Shown one piece after another: positions 3,874 to 21,372 of a DNA stretch of 27,790 nt. Source of the stretch: a virus. Every line of letters starts with the position of its first letter. Positions within the stretch are counted from its first letter, which is position 1. Position numbers and translations under genes: made by a program. Location of the stretch: IMG/VR virus record IMGVR_UViG_3300025096_000096, positions 1-27,790 of that record, one strand, 5' to 3'. Below the pieces are notes generated by a model. That model was not told the DNA's origin and ran no database searches. It saw only the letters and a program-made list of their open reading frames with translations.

Positions 3874-4161
3874 TTTTGACCAGTCAATATTTGACTAACC
3901 TATTGCTACATTCCTTGCACCAGTTGTATCCCGACAAAAATATTTAATTTAACGCAAGTATTCCTACTGCTACATTATTAGTTTCTGCAAACAATAATAC
4001 TGCTGTCGGTAAACTAAAATATTTACAGTGCAAACACTACAGGTACATAACCAACCCAGTAGGTAACTAAAATATTTTTTTTCTCGGGCCGAGCCGGCAA
4101 ATGAAAATATTTTTCTTTCACGCAGGGTTGCAACTAACACTAATTTAGATTTGATAGGTGA
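3874..4161. other. Convergent intergenic region with AAATATTT repeats
   Basis: This 288-bp gap separates the convergent structural gene and methyltransferase gene; no gene is seen. It starts with a copy of the dispersed TTGAC-CA-GTCAA near-palindrome (3876-3887). AAATATTT-type blocks occur near 3947, 4017, 4068 and 4105; two sit in a longer direct repeat GGTAA(A)CTAAAATATTT (about 4010-4026 and 4060-4075). A GC-rich palindrome CTCGG-G-CCGAG lies near 4083-4093. No clear terminator with a T-tract was found. Confidence 0.5.
3876..3887. repeat. Dispersed near-palindrome, copy 1
   Basis: TTGACCAGTCAA two bases after the stop codon of the giant structural gene. It overlaps a second inverted pair, GTCAA-TAT-TTGAC. 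It is the first copy of the family when reading from the left. Confidence 0.8.
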
Positions 4162-15134: not shown

Positions 15135-15190
15135 AGAAATCCACCCAAAACTAGCATTTTCATACTAATTCTAGGAAAAATGGACTCCTT

Positions 15191-15268
15191 ATTTACGTTC
15201 TAATGCATTTTCTCATGTCGGGTAATGCCTAGACATCACCCAAAATGAGTGTTTATCAAAACGTAAAT
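15191..15268 (-). ncRNA. Candidate pseudoknotted RNA
   Basis: Outer arms ATTTACGTT (15191-15199) and AACGTAAAT (15260-15268) are perfectly complementary; inside them CATTTT (15206-15211) pairs with AAAATG (15242-15247). Further inside, ATGTC (15215-15219) can pair with GACAT (15232-15236) and GGGT (15220-15223) with ACCC (15238-15241); these two pairs cross, which defines a pseudoknot. It matches no ribozyme class I could check by eye. Confidence 0.45.
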
Positions 15269-15291
15269 AGGGAAACCATAGAGGAAATCAA

Positions 15292-16324: not shown

Positions 16325-16381
16325 ACCAATAGCCAATCTTGCGATTGGCTTTCATAGCATCTCAGCTAATCATCAGTTGGT
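16325..16381 (-). ncRNA. Hammerhead ribozyme, type I, overlapping the upstream stop codon
   Basis: Minus-strand reading: stem I strand ACCAA (16381-16377), CUGAUGA (16376-16370), stem II UAGC/GCUA in the 16-base block 16369-16354, GAAA (16353-16350), stem III GCCAAUC with a GCAA tetraloop and GAUUGGC (16349-16332), U (16331), A17 (16330), then UUGGU (16329-16325) pairing back to ACCAA. All core bases fit the hammerhead consensus, with H17 being A rather than the more frequent C. The stop codon of the 82-aa gene (TAG, 16368-16366) lies in stem II, so the core is also read as codons for Thr-Asp-Asp. The predicted cut is between 16330 and 16329. Confidence 0.88.
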
Positions 16382-18379: not shown

Positions 18380-19369
18380 CTAAAATAATCCTTTAGCAGT
18401 GTCAGAAACTTTGACCTTCTTTTCAGCCTGTCTCAGTTTCTTAGCTGTGGATTTCCTAGCTTTGTCATCCTTCTTGAGATTGTCTTGAGATTTTGCACCA
18501 ATGATGTCTTTTCTCAAGTCAGCTACAGTTGATCTTAGATCATCATCATCACCCAATAGATATTGATCTATTGAATCAAGCATATCTCTAAGCTCGTTAT
18601 AGCTACTATCCCTTAATGGATTCTTGGTTTTGTTTTTGGGATCAAACTTTTCCAATCCACTTGCCAATCTTTCGATGCTAGAAACAAGTTGTTTTGCAGT
18701 ATGCTTATCAGCATTCTGCTTAACAGTTTCTTCGCCTTCTTTATGATTGGCAATGATATTAGATTTGGCGACTTCAGATATTGCCACTCTAATATCTTTG
18801 TGATTGAACTCGTTTACGATTCCAATTTCATAATCGAAGATATACCTATCTCGCAGATCATCAGGATGAGGGTATTCATATTCTTTGAATAGATCACCCA
18901 ATCCAACATGATTCTGCTTGGCTTCTTCGATTTTCTTTGAGTAGTCTCGCAATATAATTTCAACCTCATCATCGAAGTTTTTCTTATATCGCTTAACTTC
19001 TTTCTCAAACGCTTCCAATTCAGTTGCGGGTAGCAATCGCCATTCGCCTTTTTTTACCTGTCGGTTTCCTGAGACATATGACTTGCCACCACCCAAAACT
19101 TTATCGTCAGCATCAATCCAAGGTAAAGTTTTCTTATAGATAACTTGATTCCTGAATTGTTTGCCAACCTGAATTGGGGGTTTAAGATATTCAGGGTCTA
19201 ATAAATGCTTAGATACTTTTACTAAATCCGAGTTGGCATTTTTAATATCTGCCAATTCATTTCTAGCACTGGTATCAGCCTTTATCCCACTATAAGTTTT
19301 TATAGTGACCTGAACTTTCACACAAGATTCTGCTAATGCAGTTTTCTTGTCATTATTTTTCTTACTCAT
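18380..19369 (-). CDS. Conserved phage protein between MoxR and vWA genes
   Basis: 329 aa. The pattern VKVQVTIKTYSGIKADTSARNEL, VKVSKHLLDPEYLKPPIQVGKQFRNQVIYKKTLPWID, WRLLPATELEAFEKEV, then LGDLFKEYEYPHPDDLRDRYIFDYEIG fits from memory a phage family (DUF3150-like, name uncertain) found beside MoxR ATPase and vWA genes. The C-terminal third is a long charged, probably coiled, region (DNLKKDDKARKSTAKKLRQAEKKVK). It may be the adaptor or substrate of the ATPase/vWA machine. Its leader holds a three-way-junction RNA with an anti-SD, then a type III hammerhead, then the SD. Confidence 0.8.
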   Translation of the reverse strand: MSKKNNDKKTALAESCVKVQVTIKTYSGIKADTSARNELADIKNANSDLVKVSKHLLDPEYLKPPIQVGKQFRNQVIYKKTLPWIDADDKVLGGGKSYVSGNRQVKKGEWRLLPATELEAFEKEVKRYKKNFDDEVEIILRDYSKKIEEAKQNHVGLGDLFKEYEYPHPDDLRDRYIFDYEIGIVNEFNHKDIRVAISEVAKSNIIANHKEGEETVKQNADKHTAKQLVSSIERLASGLEKFDPKNKTKNPLRDSSYNELRDMLDSIDQYLLGDDDDLRSTVADLRKDIIGAKSQDNLKKDDKARKSTAKKLRQAEKKVKVSDTAKGLF

Positions 19370-19373
19370 ATTT

Positions 19374-19384
19374 ATTCTCCTATA
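19374..19384 (-). promoter_or_regulatory. SD region of the 329-aa gene, 11-nt complement of an upstream anti-SD
   Basis: On the minus strand TATAGGAGAAT precedes the ATG at 19369. It is exactly complementary to ATTCTCCTATA (minus strand of 19479-19489) in the loop of the upstream RNA. The hammerhead lies between the two. Confidence 0.65.
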
Positions 19385-19408
19385 AGTAAAAGTTAATTAA
19401 CTGATTCA

Positions 19409-19461
19409 TAATCCTTTCGAGTAACTCATCAGGCATGACTACTAATGTCATACGAGGATTA
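19409..19461 (-). ncRNA. Hammerhead ribozyme, type III
   Basis: Minus strand: UAAUCC (19461-19456), U (19455), C17 (19454), stem I GUAUGAC and GUCAUGC with a 7-base loop (19453-19433), CUGAUGA (19432-19426), short stem II GUUACUC (19425-19419), GAAA (19418-19415), GGAUUA (19414-19409) pairing to UAAUCC. All core bases fit; stem II is minimal (one G-C pair clearly). The predicted cut between 19454 and 19453 leaves most of the ribozyme in the leader of the 329-aa gene, 84 bases before its ATG. Confidence 0.85.
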
Positions 19462-19537
19462 CACAATGGCGAATAAGGTATAGGAGAATCAAAAAAGACC
19501 CTTATCCCCTGATAAAAATCAGGTAGTGCCATTGTGT
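19461..19537 (-). ncRNA. Three-way-junction RNA presenting an anti-Shine-Dalgarno
   Basis: A perfect 10-bp outer stem (ACACAATGGC at 19461-19470 with GCCATTGTGT at 19528-19537) encloses two hairpins: CCTGAT-loop-ATCAGG (19508-19523) and an ATAAGG/CCTTAT hairpin (19473-19505). The large loop of the latter carries ATTCTCCTATA, complementary to the SD of the next gene. It lies directly upstream of the hammerhead at 19409-19461. Confidence 0.6.
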
Positions 19538-19558: not shown

Positions 19559-20647
19559 TTAAACCAAGATGTCTTGGTTTTTAATGTGCCAATCAATAAA
19601 GACCGAAGTCTCTTTGAATTTTGATTCTTTTGTTGTGAGTGCTTTGACAAACAAAACTGAATACTCTTTAGCATCAAAACGCTCTATATAAGTCAGAGCA
19701 TTTTCAAATTGCTTTGGAGTTTCAACCGCATTGATCAGAGATGCAACACTTGCATATTGCAGTTCTGTCCTTTCAGGTAGTTTTGCTGTTTTTGGACTCT
19801 TGAGAATTTTAGTTGGCGATTCCAATTCATTTTGGAATGCACAAAAAGTTTCAAACTCTCTAGCGACTGTTTCACCCAAGTAAGATTCCAACACTGGCTG
19901 TATCAGTGATCGTCTAAGATCACCAGTCAGCATTTCACTTACTTGATGCCAAATTCTTGGTGCGGGAAATCCACCCTCTTTCTTGGCATCAAATTGATGT
20001 AAGAATTGAGGTTGGAAAGTTAAGAATGCCAGTATGTCAGCATTAATATTATTCCCATATCCCCACTCTAACCACTCATTCGTATCAGGAACTAATTCCA
20101 AAGTTAAACAAGCAGATTGAAAGTGAGTCAAGATTCTTTGAGCACCCGCTCTATCGGTTGAATGATTACCCGCAAGGATAATTTTCCAACCAGTAGGCAA
20201 AACATAATCAGTGCCAATTCGACCTTCAAAAGTCAGTTGGCGAATTGTGTTTTGTAGTGCGGGAGTTGCTTGGGCTACTTCATCCAAAAACAAAAGACCT
20301 TTACTGTTTTTATCTGTAGGCAGATTATCCAGTAATGCTCTTTTCTGACTGCCAGTTTTATCATCGATATATGGCAACCCTGAAAAGTCGATTGGCTCAT
20401 ACATGGCGACCCTAAAATCAGCGAAACCAAATTCATTTTTCTTTGGCTTCACATTATAGATTGGTCGATCCTTATGATCCCTTAACAGTTTCAGTTTAGA
20501 TTTGTCAGCAATAGTCTGAGCAATCTCAAAGACTAGAGAAGATTTACCGATAGCGGGACTTCCTTTTATGAAAGGCACACTGCTCGATGCATTCTCTAAG
20601 TTATGTAAGATTACTTCGACTAGTTCACTAGCTTTTAATTTACTCAT
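19559..20647 (-). CDS. MoxR-type AAA+ ATPase
   Basis: 362 aa. Walker A GSPAIGKSS (29-37), Walker B GLLFLDEVAQA (117-127), sensor-1 region WKIILAGNHSTDRAGAQRI and following LTLELVPDTNEWLEWG are those of MoxR/CbbQ-type AAA+ ATPases. These work with vWA-domain partners to remodel or metallate target proteins; the partner is encoded two genes downstream. The start has TAGGAGAAAATT. The 163-base space before it is filled by a near-palindrome hairpin and a hammerhead. No frameshift is seen. Alternative: NorQ/CbbQ-like regulator of an unknown phage or host enzyme. Confidence 0.92.
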   Translation of the reverse strand: MSKLKASELVEVILHNLENASSSVPFIKGSPAIGKSSLVFEIAQTIADKSKLKLLRDHKDRPIYNVKPKKNEFGFADFRVAMYEPIDFSGLPYIDDKTGSQKRALLDNLPTDKNSKGLLFLDEVAQATPALQNTIRQLTFEGRIGTDYVLPTGWKIILAGNHSTDRAGAQRILTHFQSACLTLELVPDTNEWLEWGYGNNINADILAFLTFQPQFLHQFDAKKEGGFPAPRIWHQVSEMLTGDLRRSLIQPVLESYLGETVAREFETFCAFQNELESPTKILKSPKTAKLPERTELQYASVASLINAVETPKQFENALTYIERFDAKEYSVLFVKALTTKESKFKETSVFIDWHIKNQDILV

Positions 20648-20679: not shown

Positions 20680-20763
20680 TGCTGATTTCGATTCTTTTGA
20701 ATCAACCTGTAAACAGGTTCTGCTTTCGCAGTCATCAGTAGGAATTACATTCCTAGATCAGCA
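20680..20763 (-). ncRNA. Hammerhead ribozyme, type III, with stem II replaced by three hairpins
   Basis: Minus strand: stem III strand UGCUGAU (20763-20757), C17 (20756), stem I UAGGAAU-GUA-AUUCCUA (20755-20739), CUGAUGA (20738-20732), an insert of three back-to-back hairpins (CUGC-GAAA-GCAG; AACCUG with CAGGUU; GAUUC-AAAA-GAAUC; 20731-20690), GAAA (20689-20686), UCAGCA (20685-20680) closing stem III. Core bases, stem I and stem III match the consensus; the part between CUGAUGA and GAAA is unusual since no simple stem II exists. The predicted cut is between 20756 and 20755, 108 bases before the MoxR ATG. Confidence 0.75.
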
Positions 20764-20810: not shown

Positions 20811-21290
20811 TTAAATGCTTTCGTGATGCTTAATGTAAACCAAACATCTCTCGTATGCTTCTTCATATTCATCACAGAAATGATTATCACAATAAGGATC
20901 ATCTTCAGAATATCCTGTGGGTTCATATTCATCCCTAAAGTCATCTGAGTAAACCCAAGTTGTATAAACATCCTCATCACCATTCCAACACACATATAAA
21001 TAGCTATGCTTCTTTAGTAGTGCATTGATTTTTCTTCTGAAGCTATACTCAGTCGCAACCTGTTCAATTTCTTTTTTGAACTCTTTACGACAAGCAACAA
21101 GATCATTTATTGATTTTTCGTAATCAGCGATTATTTGTTTCAACCTTTTTCTTTCTTTGGTGATTGCTTTATTCACCTCATCAAGCCTAGACTTAGAAGT
21201 TTTATTTTGTGCTGTTAGAAATTCTTTATAGTTATCGTGAACTATCAATTCCCATGTAGGCACATTGAATTTTTTATTTATTATTTTCAT
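20811..21290 (-). CDS. Coiled-coil protein with acidic aromatic tail, 159 aa
   Basis: Start taken at ATG 21290 (MKIINKKFNVPTWELIV) since TATGGAGAATCAA precedes it; the frame is open to 21356 but that part is the ribozyme. Residues 30-80 form a coiled coil (SRLDEVNKAITKERKRLKQIIADYEKSINDL). The C-terminus is very acidic and rich in Tyr, Cys and His (DEYEPTGYSEDDPYCDNHFCDEYEEAYERCLVYIKHHE), possibly metal-binding. No family is recognised. Confidence 0.75.
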   Translation of the reverse strand: MKIINKKFNVPTWELIVHDNYKEFLTAQNKTSKSRLDEVNKAITKERKRLKQIIADYEKSINDLVACRKEFKKEIEQVATEYSFRRKINALLKKHSYLYVCWNGDEDVYTTWVYSDDFRDEYEPTGYSEDDPYCDNHFCDEYEEAYERCLVYIKHHESI

Positions 21291-21314: not shown

Positions 21315-21372
21315 ATCAAGACCCAACCTTTCGATTGGGTTTCGCCTGAGTTTCACAGGCTCATCAGTTGAT
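21315..21372 (-). ncRNA. Hammerhead ribozyme, type I, canonical
   Basis: Minus strand: stem I strand AUCAA (21372-21368), CUGAUGA (21367-21361), stem II GCCUG-loop-CAGGC (21360-21344), GAAA (21343-21340), stem III CCCAAUC with a GAAA tetraloop and GGUUGGG (21339-21322), U (21321), C17 (21320), UUGAU (21319-21315) pairing to AUCAA. All conserved core bases are present. The predicted cut between 21320 and 21319 is 29 bases before the ATG at 21290. It starts one base after the stop of the upstream gene. Confidence 0.93.

Follow-up and report, generated by a model that had tools for sequence, protein, structure and literature searches.

The locus and its genes

The window, i.e., the whole stretch of DNA that was analysed, comes from a phage and comprises 27,790 bases; its terminase is 55–57% identical to those of the Pelagibacter phage HTVC027P, phage 023Pt_psg01 and the lake phage DSL-LC04. 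On its minus strand, a three-way-junction RNA and a hammerhead ribozyme sit between the gene of a MoxR-type ATPase and that of a 329-aa protein, the latter being followed by a VWA/metallopeptidase-like gene (DUF2201); the coordinates of these and of the related features are collected in Table 1. The 329-aa protein has homologues in more than 50 viral contigs, and its comparison with Pfam and PHROG gave no family match; in the annotated phage collection the protein was unmatched, so that no cultured relative with the element was found. Relatives were gathered through the 329-aa protein, the ATPase and patterns of the RNA loop described below. An alignment-based search with MoxR added one remote match only among viral contigs and none in the genome collection.

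Table 1. Features of the MoxR/329-aa protein locus and further hammerheads of the window.
Feature	Position	Strand	Remark
329-aa protein gene	18380..19369	minus	ATG at 19369
Shine-Dalgarno (SD) region TATAGGAGAAT of the 329-aa gene	19374..19384 (reads 19384..19374)	minus	exact complement of the loop
Type III hammerhead ribozyme	19407..19463	minus	full core; counterparts at the same place in relatives
Three-way-junction RNA	19461..19537	minus	fold and covariation
Junction P1	19537-19528/19470-19461	minus	10 bp
Junction P2	19523-19518/19513-19508	minus	6 bp
Junction P3	19507-19500/19478-19471	minus	8 bp
21-nt P3 loop GTCTTTTTTGATTCTCCTATA	19479..19499	minus	near-unchanged in eight genomes
Anti-SD ATTCTCCTATA within the P3 loop	19489-19479	minus	exact 11-nt complement of TATAGGAGAAT
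362-aa MoxR-type ATPase gene	19559..20647	minus	PHROG 1297; directly upstream of the junction RNA
Hammerhead III-like element	20681..20762	minus	upstream of the MoxR gene; read from sequence
Type I hammerhead	21315..21372	minus	upstream of the 159/181-aa gene; weak Rfam HH9 match
Probable type I hammerhead	16325..16381	minus	overlaps the stop codon of the 82-aa gene; read from sequence

The three-way junction

The minimum-energy fold of the region is a three-way junction of –30.0 kcal/mol, separated by 21 nt from the MoxR stop codon and located 3′ of the MoxR coding region. The motif is known from only eight contigs of one clade, five of them near-identical, namely the window and seven relatives (L001–L004 and L011–L013). 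All junction pairs are standard in 5/5 distinct sequences, and two-sided changes occur at 13 of the 24 pair positions (eight in P1, two in P2 and three in P3), as counted among these five sequences on a hand-made structural alignment, because automatic alignments misplace P2 and P3 of L012. The P3 loop is almost constant across the eight genomes although the stems diverge, and in L013, in which P1 is mostly replaced, it still reads GTCTTTTGATTTCTCCTATA. Conservation includes its left half (GTCTTTTTTG), for which most SDs do not account. Judged by its compensatory pair changes and near-invariant loop, the three-way junction is a genuine RNA, and both the fold and the covariation agree with the first-pass annotation, which had placed an anti-SD in the large loop of such a structure. 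Four contigs retrieved with the first loop pattern (L018, L022, L025 and L027) and ten retrieved with a looser one (L106–L115) were rejected, as no three-way junction was seen in them by eye.

The hammerhead next to the junction and other hammerheads

The ribozyme lying between the anti-SD loop and the SD of the 329-aa gene reads AATCC-UC/GUAUGAC-AUUAGUA-GUCAUGC-CUGAUGA-GUUACUC-GAAA-GGAUU, where the slash marks the predicted cut 19454/19453, after C19454. It has the full core of a type III hammerhead (CUGAUGA, GAAA and U19455-C19454 at the cut site) at the position at which it had been annotated, with three helices round the core and stem III open; stem I has 7 bp, stem III 6–9 bp, and stem II, with a single G-C pair in the window and 2 bp in L002, L003 and L004, is very short. 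In the window clade loop I (AGUA) is complementary to loop II (UACU), a contact predicted from this complementarity, and the pairing covaries, with AGU/ACU in the window vs GGU/ACC in L012. By these features the element is a genuine type III hammerhead, for which self-cleavage is predicted. The core in L012 reads CUGAAUGA, with one extra base, so that activity of this copy is uncertain. Rfam at gathering score returned nothing in the window and 13 relatives, and its permissive matches at the hammerhead site were at chance level.

Further hammerheads or hammerhead-like elements lie elsewhere in the window (Table 1). In the element upstream of MoxR, three consecutive small hairpins replace stem II, as they do at the same gene in L013, while stem II is ordinary in L001, L004, L011 and L012; the element at the stop codon of the 82-aa gene has same-place counterparts in L001, L002 and L004. 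A strict hammerhead descriptor gave two matches in the window and one to four in each of seven close relatives, on the strand of the ATPase cluster, with an expectation of about 0.02 per window from dinucleotide shuffling. The type III descriptor matched 138 times, always on the gene strand, in 51 distant loci (L055–L105, about 301 kb) and not once in three shuffles of them; it was unmatched in the first 50 kb each of HTVC027P and DSL-LC04, which have related terminases. This phage lineage is unusually rich in hammerheads. L011 and L012 carry, in addition, a repeated subfamily of putative hammerheads (CTGAATGA ... GTAACCAC or GTAACCTTAC) at three places, with the extra core base mentioned above for L012 and a GGU/ACC loop pairing.

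Two other elements were observed in the window. The palindrome TTGACYRGTCAA, possibly an operator or promoter element, is found at positions 3876, 5933, 11207, 13004, 14358, 15295, 18275 and 20776, i.e., eight occurrences vs 0.05 expected, and recurs in related genomes. On the minus strand, a structured leader (15160-15290) precedes an 86-aa gene and may form a pseudoknot (ATGTC/GACAT and GGGTGATG/CATTACCC); Rfam gave no significant match for it.

Complementarity of the loop to Shine-Dalgarno sites

Genes and starts in the eight genomes were predicted by a simple script, and complementarity was measured, for each start region, as the longest stretch that is exactly complementary to the loop. 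The first-pass annotation had reported an exact 11-nt complement between the anti-SD (19489-19479) and the SD of the 329-aa gene (19384-19374) on the minus strand, and every coordinate proved right. The loop is, moreover, complementary over 9–11 nt to the SDs of eight of the 12 cluster genes of the window, whose common SD is TATAGGAGAA. The SD of the gene at 20811-21290 (GGAGAATCAAA) ties with that of the 329-aa gene at 11 nt, with a better computed energy, and the SD of MoxR (CATAGGAGAAAATT) is matched over 9 nt. In the seven other genomes, three to seven genes each have at least 9 nt, mostly in the cluster on the MoxR strand; for the remaining genes the loop match is mostly at most 7 nt. When the loop was shuffled, an 11-nt match to the SD of the 329-aa gene arose at a rate of 0.03%, and matches of 9 nt or more to five or more cluster SDs at a rate of 0.02%, both being raw rates that are uncorrected for the choice of site. 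The matches to the many SDs are also not independent of each other, since the cluster SDs may be alike for other reasons.

Across the clade, 8/8 genomes keep 9 nt or more of complementarity between the loop and the SD of the next gene, so that the refuting outcome named in the first-pass annotation, a loss of complementarity with the rest retained, was not observed. Only the window and L002 and L003, its two closest relatives, have the exact match over 11 nt; elsewhere it is 9–10 nt. In L001 and L004 the SD is altered to TTATGGAGAATCAAT with the same loop, and the match shifts register (GGAGAATCAA, 10 nt). L011 and L012 have another, unrelated small gene in this place, with a 9-nt match, vs 11 nt at the SD of MoxR; three genes tie in L013, namely the next one, MoxR and another, at 10 nt each. 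To the SD of its own MoxR mRNA the loop is thus complementary over 9 nt (window), 10 nt (L013) or 11 nt (L011 and L012). Its match to the next gene ranks first or nearly first within the window clade and equal with others in L013; in L011 and L012 it falls behind. The loop occurs in two variants, GATTCTCC or GATTTCTCC; in 8/8 genomes the genome's own variant fits the SDs of its own cluster over at least an equal length, and in 8/8 it has a better mean computed energy on that cluster than the other variant, a tracking which may reflect a single evolutionary event, because the two variants are split by clade.

Distant relatives

About 50 distant loci, with 29–33% identity to the 329-aa protein, mostly retain the order MoxR, hammerhead, SD and 329-aa homologue; in some, a type I hammerhead or a different layout is found. 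The anti-SD loop is absent from them, and its position is usually taken by another stable hairpin (GGAATATTTATTATTKACTGGTAAATATTCC). Since L055 and others of these loci have the ribozyme without the loop, the ribozyme is more widespread here than the anti-SD loop.

Many SDs in the distant relatives (L055–L105, L014, L015 and L017) lie within a small hairpin with the loop UUGGAG, whose arms vary but remain complementary (AATAC/GTATT, AATTC/GAATT, TAACC/GGTTA, TGTCC/GGACA and others). A pairing of at least 4 bp is present at 55 of 61 distinct sites, vs a mean of 9 and a maximum of 19 with shuffled partners. These hairpins, for which a scan of 10 distant loci gave no Rfam match at gathering score, are possibly the site of a translational repressor or of a nuclease.

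A candidate mechanism and its alternatives

Covariation establishes the RNA structures, and both the conservation of the loop and its complementarity to most SDs of the cluster are direct observations; transcription as a single unit, cleavage in vivo, actual pairing and repression are what we infer from them. The reading that we tentatively favour, at somewhat less than an even chance, is that of a ribozyme-made 3′ end of the MoxR mRNA carrying an anti-SD loop aimed at the common SD of the cluster. The minus-strand gene cluster would be transcribed into one long RNA, which hammerheads would cut between genes; the cut at 19454/19453 would cap the 3′ end of the MoxR mRNA with the three-way junction and give the 329-aa mRNA a new 5′ end. 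After cleavage the junction would be the 3′-UTR of MoxR, its 21-nt loop displaying the complement of the cluster SD, and could pair with the SD of its own mRNA and/or of sister mRNAs of the cluster, leading to less ribosome loading or marking these mRNAs for decay. Cleavage would untether the next gene from the inhibitor, a loop that would not be dedicated to this gene. Formation of a 3′ end fits because the structured element is in every case situated between the MoxR stop codon and the cut, immediately 5′ of the latter, and because another stable hairpin takes this place in distant relatives. That such an end would set the translation of the whole cluster, as an operon-wide anti-Shine-Dalgarno control, appears somewhat unlikely.

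The first-pass annotation had proposed a self-cleaving switch, in which the loop of the uncut RNA would pair with the SD of the next gene only, and cleavage would separate the two and turn on translation of the 329-aa protein once. Its parts (hammerhead, junction and SD-complementary loop) are real, and this reading could draw on the exact match in three genomes, on the 9 nt or more found at the next gene in all eight and on the position of the ribozyme between the loop and that SD in 7/8 genomes. The dedicated one-way unit of loop, ribozyme and 329-aa gene lacks support in the form proposed: the 329-aa gene is not the sole match, as most cluster SDs fit and one ties with it at 11 nt; the next gene is not consistently the best match and is another one in L011 and L012, where the SD of MoxR fits better; L013 keeps the junction and loop with a long hairpin in place of the hammerhead, and in the distant clade the hammerhead occurs but the loop does not. 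An 11-bp duplex between loop and SD has, in addition, a computed energy of about –14 to –15 kcal/mol, which would be too stable for quick release by the cut alone, so that cleavage would have to precede pairing. The comparison does not favour a one-gene switch triggered by cleavage, the earlier reading being only partly supported and the switch itself improbable. Since most genes of the cluster have a ribosome-binding site complementary to the loop, the latter looks more like a shared translation brake.

The junction could instead serve only to protect the 3′ end of the cleaved upstream mRNA; its loop would then be conserved otherwise, e.g., for an RNA-binding protein of phage or host, and would match the SD as a consequence of a pyrimidine-rich CUCC sequence. 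Such a protector, which we consider unlikely, would explain why distant relatives without an anti-SD have a stable hairpin at the same place and why conservation extends to the left half of the loop, which lacks SD partners, but the match (TATAGGAGAAT) runs past both ends of the 16S-like core, the variants of the loop go along with the SDs of the cluster, and the match arises in only 0.02–0.03% of shuffles. Highly improbable in our judgement is a role of the shared SD block and the ribozymes as linkers for gene exchange between phages, with the loop a captured inverted SD of no regulatory role. The cluster genes do differ at these junctions among relatives (L011 and L012), and UTR blocks repeat within the genome; an unselected inverted SD, however, should not stay near-constant where the stems are largely replaced.

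Comparison with known systems

In prophages, hammerheads occur in clusters on either side of individual genes or short blocks and may process long transcripts to mRNAs of gene length, loop I–loop II pairing is common among them, and their biological functions are called unproven, according to the part of Perreault et al. (2011, PMC3088659) considered here. The present locus is similar in that several hammerheads flank genes and a loop I–loop II pairing is predicted. It differs in that the ribozyme adjoins a conserved three-way junction bearing an anti-SD loop, anti-SD elements being unmentioned in that part of the paper, and in that the lineage is unusually rich in hammerheads.

The anti-SD side of the favoured reading also has counterparts. 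In the icaR mRNA of Staphylococcus aureus, a motif of the 3′-UTR base-pairs with the mRNA's own SD, which prevents initiation and attracts RNase III (PMC3868564). Here, too, a 3′-UTR element is complementary to the SD of its own mRNA, and possibly acts on others, with repression by it being putative; unlike icaR, it belongs to a phage, its anti-SD is exposed in the 21-nt loop of a three-way junction, it matches most SDs of a cluster, and its 3′ end would be made by a ribozyme. As in RNAIII and the UCCC-motif sRNAs of S. aureus (PMC2837412, PMC3868564), a C-rich motif is directed against several SDs; theirs pairs in trans and belongs to dedicated regulatory RNAs, whereas the present element would end a protein-coding mRNA. 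Phage-wide control aimed at a common SD motif is likewise known from T4 RegB, which acts at GGAG Shine-Dalgarno sites (PMC3014915), with the difference that RegB is a protein nuclease and the agent here would be an RNA loop.

The open-licence papers searched yielded no combination of a hammerhead and an anti-SD element; clustered phage hammerheads and 3′-UTR anti-SD control are each known, and the pairing of both appears to be new. The reason why phages keep hammerheads between genes is unsettled, and at this locus a role of the ribozyme in gene control is directly testable, because it has a defined neighbour, i.e., a conserved anti-SD loop whose putative targets and natural variants are listed. 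If true, the favoured reading would provide a natural example in which processing by a ribozyme is coupled to repression directed at the SDs of a gene cluster.
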